The notes below the pieces were generated by a model. It saw only the letters and a program-made list of their open reading frames with translations. It made no database searches and was not told where the DNA came from. Below, piece after piece: positions 14,617 through 37,486 of a stretch of 64,000 nt of DNA. Each line of letters opens with the position of its first letter. Positions within the stretch are counted from its first letter, which is position 1. Source of the stretch: Bdellovibrio sp. (GTDB lineage: Bacteria > Bdellovibrionota > Bacteriovoracia > Bacteriovoracales > Bacteriovoracaceae); NCBI GenBank assembly GCA_016187935.1, contig JACPIU010000008.1, positions 58,916-122,915 of the forward strand. The letters are read 5' to 3'. A program made the position numbers and the translations under genes.

Positions 14617-14642
14617 AGAGAGAGTTCGTGCCCAGGAAAGGA
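14617..14642. repeat. decayed tRNA-Leu attachment-site copy
   Basis: This 26-bp segment matches 24 of 26 positions of the tRNA-Leu 3' end and flank at 37393-37418. Its core reads TTCGTGCCCAGGAAAGGA against TTGGTGCCCAGGAGAGGA. It has the same orientation as the copies at 23465 and 37393. It probably marks the outer end of the older, middle element. Confidence 0.65.
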
Positions 14643-20969: not shown

Positions 20970-21486
20970 TGTTAAACACTGGAATGCGAAAAGGCGAGCT
21001 GGCAGGTTTGTGTTGGGATCGGCTGGATTTTTCCAGAAGCATGATTGAGGTAAGTCGAATTCGTGGCCGCTACGGTTTGCGCAACACCACCAAGTCAGGA
21101 GTAGCCCGTCATGTGCCCATGAATGAGATGGTGAAGCAGACGTTGATGAACTCTACTCGGTGAGGAAAAACAATTTTGTTTTTCTTAAGGCCGATGGGCA
21201 AGCGATCAACCCGCTTCATATTTACCACGATTTTGGCAAGGCCCAAGCTCGTGCCAAAATGGACAAGCGCATCCGCTTCCACGATCTCCGGCATACCTTC
21301 GCCAGCCATTTCATGATGAGTGGTGGCAACCTCTACGATCTGCAAAAGATTTTAGGCCACACGCAGTTCGAGATGACTCAAATCTATGCCCACTTGTCCC
21401 CCGACCATCTGGCGAATAAGACCCAGATTCTTTCTTTTGGAAGTGAAGTTTTGGACTCTCTATCGCGAGTACCGTTAATTGATTAG
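20970..21486 (+). pseudogene. tyrosine integrase, 5' deleted and frameshifted
   Basis: From 20970 the DNA is nearly identical to 31935-32450 of the intact integrase. The first 195 or so codons are missing and replaced by unrelated AT-rich sequence. A one-base deletion near 21150 (ATGAACTCTACT against ATGAAGCTTTAT) shifts the frame. The 3' part still encodes the catalytic HDLRHTFASH and LGHTQFEMTQIYAHLS segments from 21160. It is the dead integrase of the middle element or a duplicated fragment of the right-hand one. Confidence 0.88.
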
Positions 21487-21491
21487 ATTTG

Positions 21492-21531
21492 AAAAAAGGC
21501 CTTGGGATTTCAAAGTTCCCAGGGCCTTTTT
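21492..21531 (+). terminator. rho-independent terminator after the integrase stub
   Basis: AAAAAGGCCTTGGGA and TCCCAGGGCCTTTTT form a strong stem with a short loop and a U tract. It is the same terminator as at 32456-32495, duplicated with the surrounding segment. Confidence 0.85.
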
Positions 21532-21580
21532 AATAAGGTTGTATTAATGTGCTGTGTTTTCGATAGGTTAGTTGCTCTAT

Positions 21581-21625
21581 GTAACATACATATTACATAT
21601 GCACTCTAAGTTAGACATATGTTAC
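21581..21625 (+). promoter_or_regulatory. putative operator GTAACATA...TATGTTAC
   Basis: Perfect 8-bp inverted arms (21581-21588 and 21618-21625) flank a 29-bp spacer. The equivalent region at 32546-32588 precedes the intact toxin-antitoxin pair, so this is the probable autoregulatory site left in front of the toxin deletion. Confidence 0.5.
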
Positions 21626-21695
21626 AATAAAGGCGAGAGCAAAACAAGGCCATTAAGGCGATATCAAAAAAAGATAGTCAAGCTTTGGAGAAAAT

Positions 21696-22109
21696 ATGGT
21701 AAGCACCGCAGTGAAACAAAATATTGGTAAAAATTATCGGGCAAAGAAAATGGGCCTCAAAGAAAAATTCGGACATCCCGATTTTATCCTAGAGCAGATT
21801 TCAGAGTGCGTGAAAGATGGAGATTTTGCTTCAATCACAGATTTTATTTCATCCTATGTTTCTAATAGTCCCAAATACAAATCCCAAGATGAATTTGCAG
21901 AGGCCATCGGAACGACCAGGCAAACACTCCACCGAATGTTTGCTCACGAAAATGTCTCTCTCAATATTCTATTTAACGCACTTGAAAAAATTCATGCTGA
22001 TCAGACAGCTATCGCGCAACCTGTGGACAGCAAAAAATTTCTGGAAAAGGCCAAAGGGGCCTTGAAGAAACATAAGCACGCTATGGATAAATTGAAATGC
22101 CCAACGTGA
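21696..22109 (+). CDS. orphan antitoxin, toxin gene deleted
   Basis: The first 105 or so residues are nearly identical to the antitoxin at 32981-33370, including the helix-turn-helix DEFAEAIGTTRQTLHRMFA. Upstream, where the second copy has a 119-codon toxin gene, only about 60 bases remain (GAGCAAAACAAGGCC and GCGATATCAAAAAAAGATAG, both from the toxin's 3' end). The toxin was removed by internal deletion while the antitoxin and its GGAG ribosome site were kept. The C-terminus differs from its twin: it ends GALKKHKHAMDKLKCPT, like the tail of the phosphoesterase at 34134. It may protect against the intact toxin. Confidence 0.85.
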   Translation: MVSTAVKQNIGKNYRAKKMGLKEKFGHPDFILEQISECVKDGDFASITDFISSYVSNSPKYKSQDEFAEAIGTTRQTLHRMFAHENVSLNILFNALEKIHADQTAIAQPVDSKKFLEKAKGALKKHKHAMDKLKCPT

Positions 22110-22133
22110 TTTCAAGCATATAATGCTGAAATT

Positions 22134-22634: not shown

Positions 22635-22680
22635 CAAAAGTGACATTTTTATGAAATAATGTCACTTTTGGACTATAATC
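22635..22680 (+). promoter_or_regulatory. promoter with 14-bp inverted-repeat operator of the abiE locus
   Basis: CCAAAAGTGACATT (22635-22648) and AATGTCACTTTTGG (22659-22672) are perfect inverted repeats with a 10-bp spacer. A consensus TATAAT follows at 22675-22680 and the ATG comes only 6 bases later. The transcript would be nearly leaderless. AbiEi antitoxins of streptococci are known to autorepress by binding inverted repeats at their promoter, which fits this layout. Confidence 0.75.
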
Positions 22681-22685
22681 TAAAT

Positions 22686-23270
22686 ATGATCAACAAAGAA
22701 AAACAACTCCAGATACTAAAGAAGCTTGGACCGTTTGATATAAAAACCGCAACTACCAAAACGGGCATCTCAATAACTACACTGAAGCGATGGACCCAAG
22801 AGGGTCTAATACGAAAGATTGGCAGAGGCCTCTATGTGCATCCCGAGAGTCTTGAAGACCCTGCCGTAGAAGACTTTTGCGCTGCTTGTGCCCACTTTGG
22901 CAAAAAATCGGCAGTGGGTGGACTCACTGCCCTTTTCCATTATGGATTAATTGAACAAGTTCCCACTCAAATCTGGATGATTGTCCCGCCTTCAAGTAAA
23001 ACAAGACTTTCGCTGTATCGTCTAATAAGAAGCAAAACACCATTTAGTGTTGGCATTGACGATCACGGGAGTTTTAGAATTACCTCTATTGAAAGAACAT
23101 TGGTGGAAGCTCTCAAATATTCAACCAAGATAGGTGTTAGAACTGCCATTGCGGCGATAAGAACCGCCATTAGGGATCGCAAGACTACGGAAGTAAAAAT
23201 TGGTCGAATGGCCGACAAGCTAAAAATGAAATCAGTCCTGATCAAATATTGGGAGACATTTGTCGAATGA
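22686..23270 (+). CDS. abiEi: AbiEi family antitoxin/transcriptional repressor
   Basis: From ATG 22686 the product is 194 residues. It has a winged-helix N-terminus (DIKTATTKTGISITTLKRWT, GLIRKIGRGLYVHP) and the AbiEi C-terminal domain (AVGGLTALFHYGLIE, QIWMIVP, FRITSIERTLVEALKY). It is the antitoxin of a type IV TA system that gives abortive phage infection and counteracts the nucleotidyltransferase AbiEii. The stop overlaps the next ATG in ATGA, as expected for the operon. Its toxin is truncated. Confidence 0.88.
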   Translation: MINKEKQLQILKKLGPFDIKTATTKTGISITTLKRWTQEGLIRKIGRGLYVHPESLEDPAVEDFCAACAHFGKKSAVGGLTALFHYGLIEQVPTQIWMIVPPSSKTRLSLYRLIRSKTPFSVGIDDHGSFRITSIERTLVEALKYSTKIGVRTAIAAIRTAIRDRKTTEVKIGRMADKLKMKSVLIKYWETFVE

Positions 23271-23446
23271 ATATAAAAGAGCAGGCACGTTCCATAACAC
23301 AAAAGTTAGTCAATCTTGCACAAAAGAAAGGAGTCGCTCACCCGCTGGTCGTCACTGAATTTCTTATTGAAAGATTGCTAGCGAGAATTATTTCCAATCA
23401 AAAACTCCAAACCTCATTGATTTTTAAAGGTGGCTATGTCGGATTA
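23267..23446 (+). pseudogene. abiEii: AbiEii toxin truncated at an attachment site
   Basis: After the ATGA overlap the frame reads MNIKEQARSITQKLVNLAQK up to LIFKGGYVGL, the start of the AbiEii nucleotidyltransferase. The catalytic GS motif and aspartates downstream are missing. At about 23447 the sequence changes to the tRNA-Leu flank (TAGAATTAAAGA at 23449), and the frame runs on through unrelated DNA to 23695. The gene was therefore cut by integration at this site. A functional toxin cannot be made. Confidence 0.82.
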
Positions 23447-23448
23447 TA

Positions 23449-23490
23449 TAGAATTAAAGAGAAAAAAGAGAGTTGGTGCCCAGGAGAGGA
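23449..23490. repeat. left attachment site of the mobile element (tRNA-Leu 3' end copy)
   Basis: This 42-bp stretch matches 37377-37418 at 39 positions with identical spacing, and the last 24 bases are identical (core TTGGTGCCCAGGAGAGGA). In the tRNA copy the segment contains the encoded CCA, acceptor stem and part of the T stem. It is the classical direct repeat left by a tyrosine integrase at a tRNA gene and bounds an element of about 13.9 kb. Confidence 0.88.
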
Positions 23491-23617
23491 GAGCCAGGGA
23501 CCAGAAAATGCGCAACAACAGACAGCAACAAACACAAACAAGACACTGAAATTATTCATAACCATTAACCGGCCTTATTGTCCTTTTTTGCCAGCTTTAT
23601 TCAATTTTTGGGGATTT

Positions 23618-23636
23618 TGGTCCAGATTTGGTCCAG
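23618..23636. repeat. paired TGGTCCAG repeats, putative integrase arm sites (left end)
   Basis: TGGTCCAG occurs at 23618-23625 and 23629-23636, an 11-bp period, inside a TTTTTGGGGATTTTGG context. The same pair (TGGTCCAG at 37331, CGGTCCAG at 37342) lies at the other end of the element about 50 bases from the tRNA-side att repeat. Positions and symmetry suit arm-type integrase or excisionase binding sites. Confidence 0.55.
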
Positions 23637-23707
23637 AATTTTACCTGTCAAGTTTGCCGTTTTCCAATAGATTTTTAGTTCGTCCTAAATGTTGAAATTC
23701 ATCACGC

Positions 23708-24451
23708 CTAAAACAAAATTTCGGTGAACCATTTAGCCTTTAATTGGTCTTGTACTTTTTTTACTTGCTCTCTAATAATATCTAATTCTGTCCCATAAAA
23801 GGATGCATTGTTTCCAATATGGCCAATTTGAGCGATCGTATTTTTAGGATTTAGCGTTAGATTTTCGAGACTTCTAATTATTTCAGCAATGTCAGCGTCT
23901 AAATCATTTAATCCATAAATGTCGGCAATCTTGTTGTAATAAATGATTTTTCGCTGCACTTGATAAATATACGAATCCAAGACATTTCCCAAATTTGCAT
24001 AAGTGAAATTAATCCCCGTTGGAGTCCGTTGAGTTGAAAATATTTGTTTCACATTAGTTGATTGAGGCATGTAGGTTATATTTAAAGTTTGAAGGACATC
24101 AAAAAATTTATCCTCCACCGGAACGACTTGCCCTGTTTGTTTTAATTCTTCTTTTAGGTCGAAAATCAAATGTTGAAAATAGGATTCTATTCGTCCTGTT
24201 TCGTTGGCAAAGCGATTCAAGATATTTATTTTTTTTGCGGCAGATGGAAATACCTCTATCAGAAAATAGAATACGAAACCAGAAATAATTCCTTCACAGA
24301 CTGACTTAATTGTTTCGTAATTTGGGGGCAACAATTGGAAAGTAATTAACGAAAAAACAAAGAGAACAACCATAATATTCCTGGGGAATTCATTAAATAG
24401 TGACTCTATTTCTTTTCGGTAAATAGCAACTTCATTAATATCAACATTCAT
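23708..24451 (-). CDS. membrane protein next to the Mrr-STAND gene
   Basis: I choose ATG 24451 because AAGGA lies 7 bases before it; the frame is open to 24481. The 247-residue product has two membrane helices near the N-terminus (about residues 25-43, MVVLFVFSLITFQLL, and 51-67, IISGFVFYFLIEVFP). A cytoplasmic helical domain follows, with coiled-coil-like stretches at the end (IIREQVKKVQDQLKAKW). It lies downstream of the large nuclease-NTPase gene on the same strand. It could be the membrane partner of a two-gene defence system, which is inference. No family is recognised. Confidence 0.65.
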   Translation of the reverse strand: MNVDINEVAIYRKEIESLFNEFPRNIMVVLFVFSLITFQLLPPNYETIKSVCEGIISGFVFYFLIEVFPSAAKKINILNRFANETGRIESYFQHLIFDLKEELKQTGQVVPVEDKFFDVLQTLNITYMPQSTNVKQIFSTQRTPTGINFTYANLGNVLDSYIYQVQRKIIYYNKIADIYGLNDLDADIAEIIRSLENLTLNPKNTIAQIGHIGNNASFYGTELDIIREQVKKVQDQLKAKWFTEILF

Positions 24452-24586
24452 ATTGCGATCCTTCACTTGGGCATGGACCATTTTGACATCAAACGATTAG
24501 GAACCTAGAACCTTTTTTTAGAACCGACGTTTTTAGTACAGAATTTTCATAGATGTAGTGAAGATGAAAATATCTGCCAAATTCTT

Positions 24587-27307
24587 TTAAAGTTTTACTA
24601 ACTTACGCTTCGACTTACTCTTTTTCTTTATTACTTTAGTGGTTTTTTTCCTCGGTCGGCCGATTTTGCTATTTGATGAGTATACATATCTTTTATCTTC
24701 AATGATTCCAAGCCCCTTTCCCCAACTCAACAAAACTTTGATCACATATGCAGCGCTGATTTCCGTTGATAATGACGGAAGTATGCGCTTTATTTCAGAC
24801 ATTAAATCTCCGCCACTTGCCACAACTTTCCAAAAATCGCCTAGTGTCTCTTCAAACAGCCCCGCAGCATCTTCAATAAACTCACTTTCATCTGCAACAA
24901 GAAGTTCATTTCCTTCAGCCCATCCGCCATTTTTCAAATCTGAATACGCTTTTTTATCATTACTATCAAAATTGTCAGAGTTGAATTCCCCTAATAAGGA
25001 ATATATCGACACAAAATTAAACGAAAGTGAAAAACGATAATTTGGAATAAAAATGCCACGGTTCCCTCTACGCCCACGTGCCTTAATATTTGTCAGATTT
25101 CCTAAGGTGCTTACAATCTCATCACGGGTTAAATCTGGAATAGATATAATGCCTGTATGTTTATCAATGCTAATAAATATTAAAGCTTGCATCCAGCTGA
25201 GAAGGGCTTTGGAATATGCTTGCCAGGTTTCGCGACTGGCCTCCACAAAGGGGAATTCCATTACTAAAATTTCAGGGACTGAGTCCAAAGAAATTGACTT
25301 GCCTTGGGATAGTAGATTAAGAATGCATGATACTGCTTCATTTTTTGCCAGTTCACGTCTTAAATGGTCGCCTAACCGACCTTGCTTGATCACATCTAAA
25401 ACAATCTGAGGGATCTTCCATCCAGCATCCGTTGTTTCGACAAGATTAAGTGTTTTCCATTCTCTCACTATATTAAAAGCTGTACCCTTTGAAGTATTCG
25501 TTTCTTTCTGCACTAAATCCGCATCAAATTTTGCATGTGTGTAAATGCTTAAAAAATTTCGGATGACTGTGTAAGCAGATAATCGGTAAAGGGTTTTCTG
25601 CTTAAATTGTGGTAATTTCCGAAAAAGTACAAACTCTTTAAGTACGTCATTATAAGTGTCGTAAGTGGAACCCGAAAGCCGAATTAATCTTGTTTTGGTC
25701 AGATGATCCAGCATTTGCTTCAAAAGAGGATCTTCGTCAAAGACTTTATGCAATTGATGATAATTTGCAGGCAAATTCTGAATGATTCTTGATAAATAAT
25801 CCAACTGGACTTCATCAAGACCTGCTAGCTCCTCATTAAAAAGATCATCCAATTTTAGACCGGTGGCAATTAGATCGCTTTGGGAAATGCCTGCATTGAG
25901 TTGATTTAAAATATGAGCCATAGTTCTTTTGATCAACCATGGAAACCCTTGAGAGAACTCAATTATATAGGAAAGAACTTCTTGGTCGATACTACTGCCC
26001 CAAGCATCAATAATTTTCTTTACGAGTAATACTGTTTCTGCCTTATCAAAATCTTTTAACGTAAAACTTTTTGAATTAGCATTAATTTTATCGAGCGAAA
26101 TTTCGGTTTCATCATATGTTGTAAGTTGGTCATTCTTCCTTGCTATAATGGTCACGATCTTTTGGGGGTAATTGGACAATAAAGAAAAAAGACTTTCATA
26201 TGCATCAAAAATCTCTTTCCTGCTGAAAGTAGACTCAAATTGATCTACAAAAAAAAGTGCTTTGTTAGTTAGTGAATTTGAAAATATCCTAATTTGCTCA
26301 TTCACTTCTCTAAAATCTTTTGCAATATCGCTAGCCCCCGTGAATCTCTGAATCAGAATAAAGATGTCTAGGCTTGCTTTGATATCCCTCGAATCATGCA
26401 GCTCAACTTTATTTCGTTTTTTCCCGTATCTATCAGCAAGCAATGCTAATAATGAACTTTTGCCGACTCCTGAACGACTCTTAATTTGGAGAAGTGATGT
26501 ATTGCTGTTTGCAATTTCAAATTCTATTTGCTTAATCGTCTCAGCACGACCAACGAAGTATTTTGGTGATGCAGGAAGCTTATAGTCAGTCCAATCCGTA
26601 CTTAGTTGCAGCCCTAATTCAATTACTCTTCCTCCAACCTGAGAAGTTTTAAGATTTGCACTTATTTCTTCTAATTCTTGCAGTTCAGCCACATGCTCAC
26701 GAATATTTTTTAGAAATGCAGCATCAGTTACAGCGATGCCTTTCTCATTAAATATTATGAAACTATTAGGCGTTCCACTTTGCTCAGATCTACAGATGAG
26801 TACCTTAAATATACCCGAGTCTGTTACCAGCAGATAATCTATGGCCTTAATATATCCTTTGGGTATGCTTTTCTCTAACGTTTCTGTTTTTGGCAGTGTC
26901 AACTTTTCATTTATCAGAAGAAAGAGTTTATTTCCGCAGTATTGTTTTATATTTATGTTCCCTAAGCTGATAAAATAATCCTCAGCTTCGGGTGAAAAAG
27001 ATGAGGTTGACATAAATAAACCGTGAACTTTTTTTTCGTGTATACCCAAGGGAAATAATTTCCCAACAAATGCTGCCACATCTTTACCTGGAATCGTATT
27101 TTCATGCGCCTTAGCTTCAGCAACCAGCACTTCATGAGTTATTTGATTTTTCCCTTCAATGTCGTACTCAAGGCTATTTTTTTTTCTACGTACATCTACT
27201 TGATATCCAAGCTTCTCAAACAATGTCTTAAGTAGTGTTTCAAATAATACCCCCTTAAAACATCGAGAGTTAGCATCCGTTTGTTCTTTATGAAAAAATA
27301 AAAACAT
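24587..27307 (-). CDS. Mrr-type restriction nuclease fused to a STAND-like NTPase
   Basis: From ATG 27307 (AAGGA 8 bases upstream; another ATG lies at 27316) the product is 906 residues. Residues about 20-120 form an Mrr-type PD-(D/E)xK nuclease: a Glu in LFETLLKTLF, Asp in LEYDIEG and the ExK in VLVAEAKAHE. A STAND/AAA ATPase follows: FVGRAETIKQIEFEI, Walker A KSRSGVGKSS, Walker B ALFFVDQFES and an arginine near TIIARKND. The last 400 residues hold winged-helix-like segments and end in a Lys/Arg-rich tail. The order nuclease, NTPase, sensor matches antiviral STAND (Avs-like) proteins, but it is shorter than known Avs proteins and lacks obvious TPRs. Confidence 0.82.
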   Translation of the reverse strand: MFLFFHKEQTDANSRCFKGVLFETLLKTLFEKLGYQVDVRRKKNSLEYDIEGKNQITHEVLVAEAKAHENTIPGKDVAAFVGKLFPLGIHEKKVHGLFMSTSSFSPEAEDYFISLGNINIKQYCGNKLFLLINEKLTLPKTETLEKSIPKGYIKAIDYLLVTDSGIFKVLICRSEQSGTPNSFIIFNEKGIAVTDAAFLKNIREHVAELQELEEISANLKTSQVGGRVIELGLQLSTDWTDYKLPASPKYFVGRAETIKQIEFEIANSNTSLLQIKSRSGVGKSSLLALLADRYGKKRNKVELHDSRDIKASLDIFILIQRFTGASDIAKDFREVNEQIRIFSNSLTNKALFFVDQFESTFSRKEIFDAYESLFSLLSNYPQKIVTIIARKNDQLTTYDETEISLDKINANSKSFTLKDFDKAETVLLVKKIIDAWGSSIDQEVLSYIIEFSQGFPWLIKRTMAHILNQLNAGISQSDLIATGLKLDDLFNEELAGLDEVQLDYLSRIIQNLPANYHQLHKVFDEDPLLKQMLDHLTKTRLIRLSGSTYDTYNDVLKEFVLFRKLPQFKQKTLYRLSAYTVIRNFLSIYTHAKFDADLVQKETNTSKGTAFNIVREWKTLNLVETTDAGWKIPQIVLDVIKQGRLGDHLRRELAKNEAVSCILNLLSQGKSISLDSVPEILVMEFPFVEASRETWQAYSKALLSWMQALIFISIDKHTGIISIPDLTRDEIVSTLGNLTNIKARGRRGNRGIFIPNYRFSLSFNFVSIYSLLGEFNSDNFDSNDKKAYSDLKNGGWAEGNELLVADESEFIEDAAGLFEETLGDFWKVVASGGDLMSEIKRILPSLSTEISAAYVIKVLLSWGKGLGIIEDKRYVYSSNSKIGRPRKKTTKVIKKKSKSKRKLVKL

Positions 27308-27399
27308 TATGGCCATCCTTGTAAATTAAAATTTGTATCTTGCAGTTCGAAAGAAATAGGCCTCAACCCCATGTGCTCCATTGCCACCTACCGGTCAAG

Positions 27400-27780
27400 C
27401 TATTTGTAGATGTCCAACTTGCCGGACATAGCTTCTACCGCGGAAGGCCACTTCCCCGACTCTATGCCTTCCATGGCTTGCAAGAACTTGTATAGAACTG
27501 GTCGGTGTTGCAACGGTGCCTCTACTTGTAACTCTTCATAAGCGATCAAAATGAGATTAATGCTATTAGGGAATCTGCTGCGGACAGTTTGCCCCGCTCG
27601 CTGAAGAGCGCCTGGTGAATCAACACTTCGGAATACGCACTTACACCAATGTTTAATTTCCGCATCAATTGCTCGCCTGTCCCGTCGATTATCGTTTCTG
27701 ACGAGCTGCCAGTAAAAGAAAATTGTTGCTACTAACAAGCCGTACTGCGTGACAAGATATTGCTTCTCAAAAAATGTCAT
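27400..27780 (-). CDS. small membrane-anchored protein upstream of the Mrr-STAND gene
   Basis: ATG 27780 is preceded by GGGGAG at 7 bases, giving 126 residues. One membrane helix lies near the start (YGLLVATIFFYWQLV), and a basic segment (RNDNRRDRRAIDAEIKHW) follows. The rest is a soluble helical domain. It ends 93 bases before the nuclease-NTPase gene on the same strand, so it may belong to the same operon. It is GC-richer than that gene. Unknown function. Confidence 0.6.
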   Translation of the reverse strand: MTFFEKQYLVTQYGLLVATIFFYWQLVRNDNRRDRRAIDAEIKHWCKCVFRSVDSPGALQRAGQTVRSRFPNSINLILIAYEELQVEAPLQHRPVLYKFLQAMEGIESGKWPSAVEAMSGKLDIYK

Positions 27781-27903
27781 AAAATTACTCCCCAACTCGC
27801 GAACACTTATTTATTCATTAAATATCTTCTAAAAATTGATGAAACTGTACCCTAATCTTTTCCACATCGCAGGATAAAGCATAGTCGCCTAAAGCTTAAT
27901 AAA

Positions 27904-28482
27904 TCAATTTTTGCTTTTATTCTGGTTCTCATTCTCAATTTCTTTAATCAACACATTAATATCTTTCGTCAATTGCTGCATTCGTTGATCCGTTCTGTAA
28001 TCGTTGTAATACCCAAAAAGCGCTACGCCGAGGATTAGTACCATTGTCAGGCGAATCATTTTTTTATCAAATCTATGTTGATGCTCATTCATTATTTTCA
28101 GCACGTCCCCTGATAAGGGTGCCACTTCTGATACGTCAAGCATCTCTGCCTCTATCTGATTGGCCTCGATGTATTTGCCGTAGCAGTCCCTTATAAACTT
28201 GGCAGCATGACAGGTTGAGCGCCTGGTAAATTCGAATATGGCCTCCCGTTTCTGAACGACCCTTAAAATTTCCATCGCCTCGACTAAGTCTGGGCAACTT
28301 CCCTCTTCCCTTGGATTGAGATAGCGGCCAAGAGTTGTGATGTTGATTCCGGTTTTTTCTGCAATATCTTTTTGCGTATTGGTCTTTGGAAGGTACAGGG
28401 AAAGGGGAGTTTCAAGATGATCTTTTGTGGCCTTCATCACGATTTGTTTTAAAATTTGGTTAATCGTTTCATTTTCTGCCAC
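27904..28482 (-). CDS. helix-turn-helix protein with C-terminal membrane helix
   Basis: GTG 28482 is the best start (AAGGAAG six bases upstream), giving 192 residues; the frame is open to 28518. A helix-turn-helix lies around residues 45-70 (TQKDIAEKTGINITTLGRYL). A helical linker follows and then one membrane helix (MIRLTMVLILGVALFGYY) before a short charged tail. A membrane-tethered DNA-binding protein could sense membrane state or conjugation, or control the adjacent defence-type genes. No family is recognised. The gene diverges from the coupling-protein gene. Confidence 0.65.
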   Translation of the reverse strand: MAENETINQILKQIVMKATKDHLETPLSLYLPKTNTQKDIAEKTGINITTLGRYLNPREEGSCPDLVEAMEILRVVQKREAIFEFTRRSTCHAAKFIRDCYGKYIEANQIEAEMLDVSEVAPLSGDVLKIMNEHQHRFDKKMIRLTMVLILGVALFGYYNDYRTDQRMQQLTKDINVLIKEIENENQNKSKN

Positions 28483-28695
28483 AAACAACTTCCTTGCATT
28501 ACAGACAATAAGCAACAACAGAGCACCGAAATATTCGATAAGACATTATCGCAAAGTTCAGCGTGAAATTCATGATGGAATTTCAGTTTGAAGTTCACGG
28601 AGGTGGTTTAATTATCTGATTTTACAGGCAAAAACCTTGTGCATTCGCATTTTTCTTTTTATTTATAACGGCAAACTTTTCACTTGGAGGAACTT

Positions 28696-30126
28696 TTGAG
28701 TCACAAAAAAGAGCAACAATCGACGGGCGGCCTCGACATTGTAACCCCGTTTGCGGAGATTCTAGAGGCCGTTTTTAAGCAGCTTTTTGAACTCGCAGGC
28801 ATTTTGCTGAAGTTGGCATTTAACAAAGGCCTGGCCTGGTATCAGGAAACCAAAAAGGGGGTGTACACCAATCACCCCCTGCGACCGAAGCAACTTCATT
28901 CGACCAAGACTTCCTTTGAACTTTTTGCTTCAGGCCGTTCCATCAATAGGAAACGGCCTTTTTTCTTTAAAGAACTCAATACCGAACGCCATACCGCCAT
29001 CATTGGCTCTACAGGGTCAGGCAAGAGCGTTTGTATGAACCATTTGATGATTCGGGCCTTGGTTAATAACTTTCCCATCATATGCTTCGATCCAAAACCG
29101 AGTTGCGAGTCGGTCGAACAATTCAAACAAATGTGCGCTCATTTTGGACGTAAGGCCTATGTCGTTAGTGAGCTACTGCATCCAAGTGATGTCTTTAACC
29201 CTCTCGTGGAAGGAAGCGCCCACGAGGTCACAAATCGCATCATGGGCGCTCTCGAATGGAGCGACAGCTATTATAAAAATGAATCACAGCGCGCTTTATT
29301 TGAAGCAGTCATGCAGCTTGAGCGCGAGCAGGCCGGGGTTACGATTAGTAATCTAGTCACAAAATTGACCAGCTACCACGACCGAAAAAGTATCTCAGGG
29401 CTCTATACTCAGCTCGTGGCCTTAGCAAATTCTGAATACAACTCCTTCATGAATGCAGGTGCGCGAGAATCTTTGAGTTTCCGCAAGATTCGGATGGAGA
29501 AATCCTGCCTGTATGTTGGAATATCCTCTCTCGGCATTGGCAGTATCGGCCTAGCGGTTAATAAATTATTCTTTGGAAATCTTTTTTATCACAGCAAGGA
29601 GGCCTATAACGGGGTCATCCCTGGGCTTGAAAATCCCCTGGAAGCACCTATTGCTGTCTTCTTTGATGAATTATCCAGCACGGTCAATACATCATTTATT
29701 GATCTTCAAAACAAATGCCGGGCCTCGGGTATCCAACTTACCTACGCCACTCAGTGCCCTTCTGATCTAGATCGAGTCTCGCCAGAATTTACCAGGCAGG
29801 TGTTTGAAAATACCCACAACTTTTTTATTTTCAATCAGCTTGTGCCTGCCCACACCGAGTTCTTTGCAAACTTGGCCGGAACCACGACCACGCTAAAAAA
29901 GACCTACGCCATGGAAGATGATAAACGCAGCAACTTTGGAACTGAAAGGGAGGTGGAAGAATTTATTGCACACGCCAACATCTTTCGCGGGCTCAAGGTC
30001 GGACAATGTATTTTTATTCAACGAATGCCTAAACGTGTTGACTTGATCAACGTAAGGCCTCGCCTTGAATTCAAAAAATGCATCGAGCACATCGCAAATA
30101 TAGCAACAACAGAAAGTATTTTTTAA
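28696..30126 (+). CDS. TraD/VirD4-like DNA-transfer coupling ATPase
   Basis: TTG 28696 is chosen as start because GGAGG precedes it by five bases. The 476-residue protein has Walker A GSTGSGKS at about 103-110, FDPKPS after strand 2, and Walker B IAVFFDELSS near 318. The sequence IQLTYATQCPSDLDR matches the sensor region of type IV coupling proteins (TraD/TraG/VirD4, FtsK-HerA superfamily). Such proteins deliver relaxase-bound DNA to a secretion channel. The long membrane N-terminus is reduced to one amphipathic segment. No T4SS genes are in the element, so it probably borrows a helper channel. Confidence 0.85.
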   Translation: MSHKKEQQSTGGLDIVTPFAEILEAVFKQLFELAGILLKLAFNKGLAWYQETKKGVYTNHPLRPKQLHSTKTSFELFASGRSINRKRPFFFKELNTERHTAIIGSTGSGKSVCMNHLMIRALVNNFPIICFDPKPSCESVEQFKQMCAHFGRKAYVVSELLHPSDVFNPLVEGSAHEVTNRIMGALEWSDSYYKNESQRALFEAVMQLEREQAGVTISNLVTKLTSYHDRKSISGLYTQLVALANSEYNSFMNAGARESLSFRKIRMEKSCLYVGISSLGIGSIGLAVNKLFFGNLFYHSKEAYNGVIPGLENPLEAPIAVFFDELSSTVNTSFIDLQNKCRASGIQLTYATQCPSDLDRVSPEFTRQVFENTHNFFIFNQLVPAHTEFFANLAGTTTTLKKTYAMEDDKRSNFGTEREVEEFIAHANIFRGLKVGQCIFIQRMPKRVDLINVRPRLEFKKCIEHIANIATTESIF

Positions 30127-30146: not shown

Positions 30147-30935
30147 ATGAATCAGCAGCAATTACATTCACCCCTGCACTATGAGTTAATCGAACCCTTG
30201 GTCAAATGGAAAATCCTGAGTCTCGACAATTTAATGGAGGCCACCTGGAAAATTGACAAGTCGTCCAACTTCTACAAAACGATTGATGGCCTGGAAGAAA
30301 AGGGATTGATCAGCGCCTTTCACGACCCGTACTCAAAGCGCAAATATGTGTACCTGACCAACAAAGGATATGAGACCTTGGGTGCAGAAAATAATCTGCC
30401 TATCAATCCTTCTACCGTCATCCATGACACATTTTCTTCAGAGAACGCTTTCCATTTTAGAAACTTCCCCTTCACTAAAGAGGTGTTGGTCGATCACGAA
30501 ATCTTAAAGAAGTACCCGATGATTGGTCACAGACCTGATGCATTAGTTTTCGGTCACCACAAGAAAGATTTCACCATGGCCATCGAAATGGAACTCACCA
30601 TCAAGTCAAAAGAAAGGATCATGCAGACCTATTCTGCTTACAATGCATCTTCATTTTTTAATAACGTGCTTTACATTTTTGGCCAGCCCCAGGCCTTCGA
30701 AACTTACGTGGGTGTCTTAGAAAATGAAGGCAAGGCCTTGAATCATTCCAAGTTCCTCTTTGTTTTTATGAAGAACATGTACCGCCGTTATTATGAAACG
30801 TTCAGTGCTGAATGTTACCACAACGGCAATATGACAACGCTTGGAAAGCTTTTTGATATCGAAGAAAAGCTGCCTGGAAACAAGAGTGGAATGAGGGTGG
30901 AACACGTTCCACATGAATATTTAAAAGAGGTTTAA
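30147..30935 (+). CDS. replication-relaxation family protein
   Basis: The 262-residue protein starts with a winged-helix (ILSLDNLMEATWKIDKSSNF, LEEKGLISAFHDPYSKRKYV, LTNKGYETLG). It continues with the family's nuclease-like core: GHRPDALVFG then AIEMELTIKSKERIMQTYSAY, matching the RPDA...EhExxxKs pattern. Members are linked to plasmid DNA relaxation and mobilisation. It lies 20 bases after the coupling-protein gene, so the two form an operon, and just before the big inverted repeat at 30947-31034. It is the most likely DNA-processing protein of the element. Confidence 0.78.
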   Translation: MNQQQLHSPLHYELIEPLVKWKILSLDNLMEATWKIDKSSNFYKTIDGLEEKGLISAFHDPYSKRKYVYLTNKGYETLGAENNLPINPSTVIHDTFSSENAFHFRNFPFTKEVLVDHEILKKYPMIGHRPDALVFGHHKKDFTMAIEMELTIKSKERIMQTYSAYNASSFFNNVLYIFGQPQAFETYVGVLENEGKALNHSKFLFVFMKNMYRRYYETFSAECYHNGNMTTLGKLFDIEEKLPGNKSGMRVEHVPHEYLKEV

Positions 30936-31034: not shown

Positions 31035-31060
31035 AAAAAAAGGTGATTGAAAGGTGTGTT

Positions 31061-31246
31061 ATGGATATTGGTCAGATTTTGTACAACATTGAAGAAGCGG
31101 CAAGGATTTTGAATTTAAGAATTTCCAGACTAAGGACAGCAGTTTTTAGAAAAGAGATTGGGTATGTAAAATTAGCGGGTTTGGTGCGTTTTACTAAAGA
31201 TGATTTGGAAAATTGGATCAGGAAAAATCAGATTCAACCCAAATAG
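31061..31246 (+). CDS. excisionase-type MerR/Xis helix-turn-helix protein
   Basis: The 61-residue product MDIGQILYNIEEAARIL contains the winged helix-turn-helix of excisionase-family proteins (NIEEAARILNLRISRLRTAV, GYVKLAGLVRFTKDDLENWI). The family directs integrase towards excision and can act as a regulator. ATG 31061 is preferred over the upstream in-frame start at 31043. It lies 100 bases before the integrase gene, the usual xis-int arrangement. Confidence 0.85.
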   Translation: MDIGQILYNIEEAARILNLRISRLRTAVFRKEIGYVKLAGLVRFTKDDLENWIRKNQIQPK

Positions 31247-31346: not shown

Positions 31347-32450
31347 GTGGAAATCCTTAAGAACCAAGGTGAAACAACCTACCGTGAATCAGTTTACATT
31401 GACGGTAAACGGGTTAGGAGTCCAACCTTTAGAAGAAAGACCGATGCGAAAGCATGGAAGGCCAATTTTATGTCTAAGATCGGCCACTCCAAAGCGCTTG
31501 GCATCGACATCAACTTGCAGAAGAAAGAGAAAATTCTCTTCGAACACTTTCTGGTTGATTGGCTGAAACAAAAAATAAAAGTTCAGCGCTCGCAAAGTAC
31601 GTTTAGAAATTATGAACGGATTGTCCGGCTGCATCTTATCCCTCAAATGGGAAAGCTGGCCTTGACAGAGATTCTACCTAAACACGCCGATGAGCTGATC
31701 CGCTATCTTTTGAACCGCGGCCATAATCAGAAAGGGGCCAACCTAATTTTGCAAACCTTGAAGGTCGCCCTCTATGAAGCGGAACGACAGGACCTCATTC
31801 GCACCAATCCCTTGAAAAATTTTAAGATGCTCAAGGTGCCCAAACTTCCCCCGCACTATTGGACGCGGATGGAGGTAAGGCAGTTTATCTTGGCGAACAT
31901 TGATGATCCGCTCTTTCCCCTCTTCGTGGTGGCGCTCAACACGGGAATGCGAAAAGGTGAGCTGGCAGGTTTGTGCTGGGATCGGCTGGATTTTTCAAGA
32001 AGCATGATCGAGGTAAGTCGAATTCGTGACCGCTACGGTTTGCGCAATACCACCAAGTCCGGTGTGGCCCGTCATGTGCCCATGAATGAGATGGTGAAGC
32101 AGACCTTGATGAAGCTTTATGCAGTCAGAAAAAACAATTTTGTTTTTGCCAGAGAGGATGGGCAAGCGCTCAATCCACTGCATATTTACCGCGATTTTGG
32201 CAAGGCCCAAGCTCGCGCCAAAATGGACAAGCGCATCCGCTTTCACGATCTTCGGCATACCTTCGCCAGTCATTTCATGATGAGTGGTGGCAACCTCTAC
32301 GATCTGCAAAAGATTTTAGGCCACACACAGTTTGAGATGACTCAAATCTATGCCCACTTGTCCCCCGATCATCTGGCGAATAAGACCCAGATTCTTTCTT
32401 TTGGAAGTGAAGTTTTGGACTCTCTACCACGAGTACCGTTGATTGATTAG
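31347..32450 (+). CDS. int: tyrosine site-specific integrase
   Basis: The 367-residue integrase has an N-terminal AP2-like arm-binding region (about residues 5-50), a core-binding SAM-like domain (60-160) and a catalytic domain. All catalytic residues can be read: Arg in NTGMRKGELAGL (about 201), Lys in NTTKSGVARH, HDLRHTFASH (about 300-309), His in LGHTQFEM and Tyr in QIYAHLS (about 335). GTG 31347 is supported by AAGGAG upstream. It should catalyse integration at the tRNA-Leu 3' end, using the 24-bp repeat as core site. The 3' half is duplicated as a pseudogene at 20970. Confidence 0.95.
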   Translation: MEILKNQGETTYRESVYIDGKRVRSPTFRRKTDAKAWKANFMSKIGHSKALGIDINLQKKEKILFEHFLVDWLKQKIKVQRSQSTFRNYERIVRLHLIPQMGKLALTEILPKHADELIRYLLNRGHNQKGANLILQTLKVALYEAERQDLIRTNPLKNFKMLKVPKLPPHYWTRMEVRQFILANIDDPLFPLFVVALNTGMRKGELAGLCWDRLDFSRSMIEVSRIRDRYGLRNTTKSGVARHVPMNEMVKQTLMKLYAVRKNNFVFAREDGQALNPLHIYRDFGKAQARAKMDKRIRFHDLRHTFASHFMMSGGNLYDLQKILGHTQFEMTQIYAHLSPDHLANKTQILSFGSEVLDSLPRVPLID

Positions 32451-32455
32451 ATTTG

Positions 32456-32495
32456 AAAAAAGGCCTTGGGATTTCAAAGTTCCCAGGGCCTTTTT
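32456..32495 (+). terminator. rho-independent terminator after int
   Basis: AAAAAGGCCTTGGGA and TCCCAGGGCCTTTTT pair in a strong stem followed by T's. An almost identical copy lies at 21492-21531. Confidence 0.88.
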
Positions 32496-32543
32496 AATAA
32501 AGTTGTATTAATGTGCTGTGTTTTCGGTAGGTTAGTTGATTTA

Positions 32544-32588
32544 TGTAACATATATATTACATATGTACTCTAAGCTAGACATATGTTA
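32544..32588 (+). promoter_or_regulatory. putative operator of the killer/antidote module
   Basis: TAACATAT (32546-32553) and ATATGTTA (32581-32588) are inverted repeats just before the toxin start, with several internal ATATGT repeats between them. The same region survives at 21581-21625 in the duplicated copy. Autorepression by the downstream antitoxin is expected. Confidence 0.5.
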
Positions 32589-32605
32589 AAATAAAGGTGA
32601 GGAAG

Positions 32606-32962
32606 ATGACTTTAGATACGTTTACTGCTGAGGTTCCAAAAGAGGTCGAAGAACATTCAGATTATCTCGATTGGATGGAAGACCTCGATGGAACTCAAGA
32701 AATAAAGGTAATGGCCGCATTAGAAAAAATTGAAAGTGAAGGGCTCATTACCTCTGTAAAAAAACTGGATGAAGGACTTTTTGAAAAGAAATGGAACTCG
32801 GGTCTGAGGCTTTATTTCTCAGTCATCGAAAGGGCCGATAAAACAAAAACACTTCTTCTTTTGGGAAGTGGAAAAGGAAGAGAGCAAAACAAGGCCATAA
32901 ATCGGGCATTAGAGAACTTAAAAAATTATAAAGTGTTCAAAGGCGATATCAAAAAAAGATAG
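32606..32962 (+). CDS. RelE/ParE-superfamily killer toxin
   Basis: ATG 32606 follows GAGG at five bases; a GTG at 32597 is also in frame. The 118-residue protein shows the killer-family pattern: SDYLDWMEDL near the start, SVKKLDEGLFEKKWNSGLRLYFSV in the middle, TKTLLLLGSGKGREQNKAINRA and a basic C-terminus. These toxins are thought to act on mRNA like RelE. Toxin first, antitoxin 18 bases later, is the usual order. The broken relative at 14001 and the deleted copy before 21696 show repeated loss of this toxin in the stack. Confidence 0.82.
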   Translation: MTLDTFTAEVPKEVEEHSDYLDWMEDLDGTQEIKVMAALEKIESEGLITSVKKLDEGLFEKKWNSGLRLYFSVIERADKTKTLLLLGSGKGREQNKAINRALENLKNYKVFKGDIKKR

Positions 32963-32980
32963 ACAAACTTTGGAGAAAAT

Positions 32981-33370
32981 ATGGCAAGCACAGCAGTAAA
33001 ACAAAACGTTGGTGAAAATTATCGAGCTAAGAAAATGGGCCTCAAAGAAAAATTCGGACATCCCGATTTTATCCTAGAGCAGATTTCTCAGTGCGTGAAA
33101 GATGGAGATTTTGCTTCAATCACAGATTTTATTTCATCCTATGTTTCTAATAGTCCCAAATACAAATCCCAAGACGAATTTGCAGAGGCCATCGGAACGA
33201 CCAGGCAAACACTCCACCGAATGTTTGCTCACGAAAATGTCTCTCTCAATATTCTATTTAACGCACTTGAAAAAATTCATGCTGATCAAGAAGAGAGAGC
33301 TACTAAGTTTAAGAATTCACTCGACAAAATTAATAAGAAGCATGGAAAGGCGTTGAAAAACCTGGCCTAA
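32981..33370 (+). CDS. antitoxin of the killer/antidote module
   Basis: The 129-residue protein has the antidote helix-turn-helix DEFAEAIGTTRQTLHRMFA and HENVSLNILFNALEKIHAD, nearly identical to 21696-22109 over about 105 residues. It ends in NSLDKINKKHGKALKNLA, a basic tail shared instead with the DUF1778 protein at 22230. GGAG precedes the ATG. It should bind and silence the toxin encoded just upstream and repress the operon. Confidence 0.85.
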   Translation: MASTAVKQNVGENYRAKKMGLKEKFGHPDFILEQISQCVKDGDFASITDFISSYVSNSPKYKSQDEFAEAIGTTRQTLHRMFAHENVSLNILFNALEKIHADQEERATKFKNSLDKINKKHGKALKNLA

Positions 33371-37349: not shown

Positions 37350-37376
37350 CGAAACTAGCAACTTTCGATAACTATC

Positions 37377-37418
37377 TAGAATTAAAGAAGAAAGAGAGAG
37401 TTGGTGCCCAGGAGAGGA
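37377..37418. repeat. right attachment site overlapping tRNA-Leu
   Basis: This is the right-hand copy of the 42-bp direct repeat (39 of 42 identical to 23449-23490). Positions 37402-37418 are the last 17 bases of the tRNA gene including CCA, so integration restores an intact tRNA. Confidence 0.88.
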
Positions 37419-37486
37419 CTTGAACCTCCAAGCCTTACGGCGCCAGATCCTAAGTCTGGTGCGTCTGCCAATTTCGCCACCTGGGC
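37402..37486 (-). tRNA. tRNA-Leu (anticodon UAG)
   Basis: Read on the minus strand the 85-nt gene folds as a class II tRNA. It has acceptor GCCCAGG/CCTGGGC, a D arm with GCG...CGC, anticodon stem CCAGA/TCTGG around the loop CTTAGGA (anticodon TAG), a long variable arm (CGCCGTAAGGCT), a T arm with TTCAAGT, and discriminator A followed by encoded CCA. It decodes CUN leucine codons. Its 3' end is the integration site of the mobile elements to the left. Confidence 0.96.

Follow-up and report, generated by a model that had tools for sequence, protein, structure and literature searches.

The known Avs proteins detect phage proteins via long repeat sensors. STAND proteins with the order effector, NTPase and sensor have been described as oligomerising switches that are driven by ATP and carry the sensor at the C-terminus (PMC12724215, PMC12931631). 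For Avs1–4, killing is reported to follow from recognition of terminase or portal and to proceed through cleavage of both phage and host DNA (PMC12931631). A recent BREX survey describes the core protein BrxA as a FokI/BpuJI-like tandem HTH DNA binder and lists, among the auxiliary BREX effectors, PD-(D/E)XK nucleases that stand alone or are joined to NTPase and DNA-binding domains (PMC12839542). In DpnI-like enzymes, m6A is reported to be sensed by winged-helix (wH) domains (PMC11037411, PMC4117772). Antiviral genes are reported to gather in hotspots within prophages and P4-like satellites, and the P4 hotspot is mentioned as a source of STAND proteins that have an Mrr_cat domain, though these end in C-terminal repeats (PMC9122126).

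The protein described here is encoded in a 64,000-nucleotide stretch of DNA (the window) from a relative of Bdellovibrio and belongs to a family that resembles Avs4 in being a single-gene system, in placing a STAND NTPase after an N-terminal nuclease of the Mrr type and in its best solved-structure match (8dgf). Avs4 is about 1,580 aa long and has a helical-repeat sensor, whereas members of this family are about 900 aa long and end in a winged-helix array. The family shares with Avs5 (SIR2-STAND) the effector-STAND-sensor order and a similar size, and EfAvs5 (9jap) ranks among the five best fold matches; Avs5 however combines SIR2, nSTAND3 and a repeat sensor (PMC12931631), in place of Mrr and nSTAND1. 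In the PF22722 NA-iREase1 NACHT/nSTAND proteins a restriction endonuclease fold is also fused to a STAND/NACHT NTPase, and PF22722 scores over the Pfam cut-off in L050 and L059, but NA-iREase1 is defined as inactive while the catalytic residues are conserved in this family. The DNA-recognition region of FokI and BREX BrxA have a comparable array of HTH/winged-helix domains in tandem, which is either attached to a defence nuclease or encoded close to one; FokI differs in lacking an NTPase and in its reversed domain order, and no sequence similarity was detected. Type IV Mrr and wH-fusion modification-dependent nucleases combine an Mrr/PD-(D/E)XK catalytic domain with a winged helix, but are far shorter, lack a STAND NTPase and give only a weak match to the nuclease domain.

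Gene and domain organization

A search of the genome collection identified 132 related loci in Bacteria and Archaea; 83 loci were kept for family comparison and 79 members were aligned. The window gene and the regions of its product are as follows.

24587..27307, minus strand: Mrr-nSTAND1-winged-helix gene, 906 aa (alternative start 27316, 909 aa)
26933..27307, minus strand: Mrr_cat PD-(D/E)XK nuclease domain, residues 1-125 (Pfam PF04471 and conservation in 79 relatives)
26588..26932, minus strand: middle segment, alpha+beta and fast-evolving, residues 126-240 (AlphaFold secondary structure)
25823..26587, minus strand: nSTAND1 NTPase and helical domain, residues 241-495 (Pfam PF20703, motif counts)
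25622..25822, minus strand: putative STAND winged-helix domain (WHD), residues 496-562 (invariant YxD at 552-554, AlphaFold model)
24674..25621, minus strand: putative sensor, a C-terminal tandem winged-helix array, residues 563-878 (AlphaFold, wHTH profiles, weak fold matches)
24590..24673, minus strand: Lys/Arg-rich tail with GRPRKK, residues 879-906, disordered (pLDDT below 50)

The ORF around the gene spans 24587–27316. The ATG at 27305–27307, with AAGG about 8 nt upstream, is the likelier start codon and agrees with the end coordinate of the original prediction, to which the minus strand can now be added.

The Mrr_cat model PF04471 matches residues 21–119 with E 4e-10 and a score of 40 bits, where the cut-off is 21, and the conserved nuclease residues within the domain are E23, E47, D49, E64 and K66. 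In ungapped alignment rows, E64 and K66 are each present in 78/78, while the column of D49 contains 74 D and 3 E. On the presence of the PD-(D/E)XK D...ExK residues the protein is assigned to the Mrr_cat class. The idea of a dead nuclease was rejected on the conservation of the catalytic residues in the 79 aligned members. The middle segment that follows has a mean pairwise identity of 19.8%.

The nSTAND1 model PF20703 matches residues 248–449 with E 2e-10 and a score of 41 bits, where the cut-off is 27. The motifs of this region are a Walker A (SGVGKSS, 279–285), D305/R307, a Walker B (DQFE, 355–358), K391xD393 and a GxP (GFPWL, 454–458). The match, the Walker motifs, the GxP and the modelled WHD together indicate a protein of the nSTAND1 class. 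GKSS, DQFE and GxP are found in 79/79 aligned members, and the invariant or nearly invariant positions comprise E47, E64, K66, D49, G-x-GKSS, DQFE, GxPWLxK, D305, R307 and YxD. Because the active sites are conserved, it can be argued that both cutting and NTP binding matter. The E...D...ExK nuclease and the P-loop NTPase of the original prediction are thus borne out: Mrr_cat and nSTAND1 are both over their Pfam cut-offs, relatives retain the catalytic and NTPase motifs far more often than chance would allow, and GVGKSS and VDQFES represent Walker A and Walker B.

The integrative element

The nuclease gene lies as cargo in an integrative element of 13.9 kb bounded by att repeats, one of which is found at the 3' end of a tRNA-Leu gene. 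The element is defined by the following features.

37396..37418, plus strand: att repeat copy at the 3' end of tRNA-Leu (tRNA 37402-37486, minus), within a 46-nt repeat at 37373-37418
23468..23490, plus strand: att repeat copy at the other element end, within a 46-nt repeat at 23445-23490
31347..32450, plus strand: tyrosine integrase of the element (Pfam PF00589, E 1.7e-31)
31043..31246, plus strand: excisionase-like HTH_17 protein (Pfam PF12728)
28684..30126, plus strand: TraD-like coupling ATPase (TIGR03743 E 5.6e-28, below the curated cut-off; TraG-D_C over cut-off)
30147..30935, plus strand: MobC-like replication-relaxation protein (NF041423 E 3e-7, below cut-off)

The integrase and the att repeats at tRNA-Leu agree with the integrase-borne island proposed earlier. 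No BREX genes were present among eight window genes scanned with PADLOC.

C-terminal array and structural prediction

AlphaFold modelled the whole window protein with a mean pLDDT of 85.5 and a pTM of 0.69, and residues 563–883 alone with a pLDDT of 90.7 as winged helices in a chain. Profile searches matched the C-terminus to Csa3 and 2d1h wHTH (E 7e-5 to 1e-4). The winged-helix-like C-terminus read from the sequence in the original prediction is therefore upheld by both profile and model, including the separate model that had been proposed as a check. A PDB fold search of this region gave no solved-structure match at E<=0.001. The weak fold matches include FokI, which ranks first (E 0.02), SelB, JetC of Wadjet, MukBEF, RPC62 and IclR- and GntR-type regulators, and many of the matches are winged-helix proteins. 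Across profile and fold searches the N-terminus falls with Mrr-like nucleases (1y88) and the centre with NTPases of the STAND/ORC type, and the C-terminus resembles winged-helix regulators.

The C-terminus and residues 126–240 are among the fastest-evolving parts of the family; mean pairwise identity in the C-terminus is 17–23%, compared to 29–39% in the nuclease and NTPase/WHD regions. Of the last two C-terminal segments, the first has a net basic charge in 61/79 members and the second in 71/77. In the window protein these two winged-helix segments are slightly acidic (net -2 and -4) and only the extra tail is strongly basic. This tail is mostly gap in the family alignment and is absent from most relatives.

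In the PDB, the fold of the whole model is matched best by portal-bound Avs4 (8dgf, E 2.3e-12), and EfAvs5 (9jap) comes fifth. The TM-scores of the whole-model fold matches are low (0.14–0.21), which fits a correspondence of nuclease and STAND regions only, so the Avs4 match supports the domain order and not full-length identity. A pairwise PDB search (phmmer) with the window protein returned no solved relative.

Relationship to Avs proteins and restriction enzymes

The effector-STAND NTPase-sensor order was expected from the sequence and is seen in the Pfam matches, the conserved motifs and the top fold matches to Avs4 and EfAvs5. The protein was also described as smaller than Avs proteins and without TPRs, and both descriptions hold: it has 906 aa against about 1,580 aa for Avs4, and its C-terminus consists of winged helices, unlike the TPR-type Avs sensors. 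A helical-repeat (TPR-like) sensor of the Avs1–5 kind was not found by profile or model. PADLOC 2023 and NCBIfam, which served as the proposed profile comparison, gave no Avs match. The Avs4 model NF041815 (1,579 positions, cut-off 1,500 bits) had no match in the NCBIfam scan at E<=1, and in nine family members PADLOC 2023 matched nuclease-domain, P-loop or wHTH fragments and no Avs model. Membership in Avs4, or in Avs1–5 generally, was rejected on these profiles, and a native Avs4 over cut-off was not found in any genome searched. By analogy, the family would function like an Avs nuclease, yet it stands outside Avs by profile tests.

Close similarity to a restriction enzyme subunit, which would have spoken against the original prediction, was also looked for, and no family-level profile match was obtained. 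No characterised type II or IV restriction subunit proved closely similar, with phmmer returning no solved relative and the PADLOC mREase_IV model reaching only E 4.5e-4 over the nuclease domain.

Distribution of the family

The aligned members (n=79) come from about 20 phylum-level groups, and the uncut members among the 83 loci mostly have 880–950 aa and the same domain order. Mrr_cat and nSTAND1 were over the Pfam cut-off in all three further members scanned (from E. coli, from Acinetobacter and a BREX-linked one). The archaeal loci belong to Lokiarchaeota, Methanosarcinales and Thermoplasmata bins, which may hold stray contigs. Plasmid relatives are found in Salmonella, Enterobacter, Streptomyces, Burkholderia and Chryseobacterium, and further relatives occur in Acinetobacter records. 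Phage records and a first viral-contig scan yielded no relative, and an alignment scan identified three viral contigs with relatives.

In the tree, a clade with good support unites the window protein with members from E. coli, Geobacteraceae, Gallicola, cyanobacteria and actinobacteria. Within its own phylum, full-length members are found only in its own genus, and the remaining matches cover just an isolated Mrr, P-loop or HTH stretch. Vertical inheritance was rejected, since full-length copies within the phylum are restricted to this genus, and the distribution pattern is read as horizontal spread.

A homologue is carried by 35 of 5,426 E. coli genomes, in all cases on the chromosome; the E. 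coli protein is WP_021536679.1 (877 aa). Copies on Salmonella and Enterobacter IncF plasmids (L005, L006) lack the start of the nuclease domain beside an IS3 element and have a frame split near the C-terminus. Because of the missing nuclease start and the split reading frame these plasmid copies are probably inactive, whereas the E. coli chromosomal copies are intact.

RefSeq names the homologues by domain only, as 'restriction endonuclease' or 'nSTAND1 domain-containing NTPase'. The Mrr-nSTAND1-winged-helix family is not represented among the PADLOC 2023 models, and no description of the architecture was found in the literature searched, a search that extended to neither subscription papers nor preprints. 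The accessions of three E. coli/Enterobacter homologues likewise had no mention in that literature.

Genomic context of relatives

Three members from Myxococcota, Latescibacterota and Verrucomicrobiota bins (L049, L059 and L089, respectively) form one clade, and in each the gene directly follows PglXI, within 60 nt downstream, inside a BREX type 3 operon. The type, which is defined by BrxC, PglXI, PglZ, BrxF, BrxHII and BrxA at a single locus, was assigned by gene order, with PADLOC confirming genes of L059 (BrxF, BrxC, PglXI, PglZ and BrxA) and of L049, where the helicase is BrxH. No BrxHII lies between the nuclease gene and PglZ in L059. In the E. coli strains inspected, the homologue is located in the Rac prophage or a P4-like island.

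Among the matches listed, the nearest neighbours of other members (n=107) include two type IIG enzymes, NgoPII- and PstI-type REases, a C5 methylase, a type III REase, DRT4, DRT6, HmaC and two PADLOC candidate systems. Defence genes make up about 11/107 adjoining neighbours versus about 8/105 at 5.5–9.5 kb, again among the matches listed, where the more distant tally consists of Septu, mad6, Cas1 and several generic matches. These raw, approximate counts give a modest excess beside the family gene. A fixed partner gene was rejected: none is common to the family, and BREX genes recur only in the one clade of three.

Methyltransferases adjoin L038 (C5 methylase), L028 (type IIG) and the three BREX members (PglXI), while most copies have none adjoining. 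In L038 the C5 DNA methyltransferase gene (L038:12622-13635) is on the same strand as the relative and its start touches the relative's stop codon, suggesting a restriction-modification-like pair in this one member. A CBASS-type nucleotidyltransferase (L033:5759-6511) is encoded upstream of the Herpetosiphon homologue.

The E. coli homologue is accompanied in the Rac prophage, in P4-like islands and on a viral contig by a 505-aa membrane protein (L096:8715-10232; L091:6749-8350) with no Pfam or PADLOC match, whose gene is separated from the homologue by an IS30 remnant. It is unlikely to be needed by the homologue because it is absent or broken in some E. coli strains with an intact nuclease gene.

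Proposed function

The window protein is likely to be an antiphage nuclease of the STAND type that works as a single-gene system, is carried by the element as cargo and has a C-terminal winged-helix sensor for a ligand. We infer the defence function from context, namely the mobile-element cargo, the Rac prophage, the P4-like islands, BREX type 3 and the R-M and DRT neighbours. At rest, the NTPase would keep the Mrr domain apart and inactive. The ligand bound by the C-terminal array would be specific to infection and would most likely be some feature of nucleic acid, such as DNA that is foreign or modified, the ends of DNA or an intermediate of replication. With ligand bound, the ATP-bound NTPases would oligomerise and bring the Mrr domains together on DNA, where they would cut phage DNA, and perhaps host DNA, so that infection is blocked or aborted. 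Oligomerisation, and DNA as both ligand and substrate, are proposed parts of this scheme.

What the fast-evolving and usually basic C-terminus reads is probably nucleic acid and not a phage protein. A nucleic-acid trigger was put first, with moderate confidence, because this kind of sensor usually binds DNA and resembles FokI- and BrxA-type arrays; by this comparison it would be no less likely than the protein trigger that the analogy with Avs suggests. The winged helices could instead form a protein-binding surface for a conserved phage protein, as Avs4 does for portal, leaving DNA as the nuclease substrate only. The nuclease-STAND order of Avs4, the top fold match to it, the fast evolution of the C-terminus and the precedent of Avs (PMC12931631, PMC12724215) are all in keeping with such a receptor. 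We consider it rather unlikely, as Avs sensors are long helical repeats, whereas here the winged helices are like DNA-binding modules and usually basic, and no Avs sequence profile matches. A serious rival, in part because some members adjoin methyltransferases, is an NTP-dependent restriction enzyme in which the array reads specific or modified DNA and the NTPase gates cutting of the same DNA, with neither STAND-type signalling nor abortive infection. The Mrr_cat family itself, the weak PADLOC type IV mREase match over the nuclease, FokI as the best fold match of the array, the methyltransferases beside L038, L028 and the three BREX members and the reported sensing of m6A by wH domains of DpnI-like enzymes (PMC11037411, PMC4117772) point in this direction. 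An enzyme of this kind is nevertheless unlikely: most copies have no methyltransferase beside them, the STAND signatures do not vary, GxP and the WHD included, and the intact E. coli copies, in strains assumed to be dam+, argue against Dam-methylation-dependent cutting. It is more improbable still that the protein controls or excludes mobile elements, for example competing plasmids or elements, instead of phages. The family is often found on mobile elements and its winged helices could recognise plasmid features, JetC of Wadjet being among the weak fold matches, but the gene is embedded in BREX type 3 in some members and copies lie beside R-M systems.

If the preferred reading of a STAND-type antiphage nuclease with a DNA-binding-type sensor is true, a compact family reaching from E. 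coli to archaea, with nuclease and STAND switch kept, would widen the range of NLR-like detection. A tentative and somewhat doubtful extension is that such proteins form a widespread class of STAND receptors that sense nucleic acid directly by joining an NLR-like switch to a FokI/BrxA-type reader instead of a repeat sensor for proteins, uniting the detection of foreign DNA and the nuclease in about 900 residues, and that BREX type 3 has recruited them to provide a second line. The family is new to the defence catalogue searched (PADLOC 2023), and the E. coli copy WP_021536679.1 makes it directly testable.

Other features of the locus

A third att-like copy is located at 14620–14642, and the three copies share one orientation with 0–2 mismatches. 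Stretches of 20975–22111 are repeated at 31938–33239 with 92–96% identity, duplicating integrase and HTH segments. The third copy and the duplicated segments suggest a second, decayed element in tandem at tRNA-Leu.

TA modules had also been predicted in the island, and here the outcome is mixed. At 22659–23695 an AbiEi-like gene, which looks intact, is followed by an AbiEii-like gene matching only the first ~60 of about 290 residues. The AbiEii-like similarity ends at the att copy, with the gene at or outside the element boundary, and the toxin looks truncated. The HigBA-like pair at 32597–33370 had no Pfam match. A TacA-like antitoxin is encoded in the segment neighbouring the element.

Small membrane or HTH-membrane proteins are encoded on either side of the nuclease gene on the same (minus) strand (23708–24481, 27400–27795 and 27904–28518), and those at 23708–24481 and 27400–27795 have no Pfam match. 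They were rejected as partners on account of a recurrence limited to the same genus. The 131-aa flanking protein and the HTH-type one occur in the same order again in L012.
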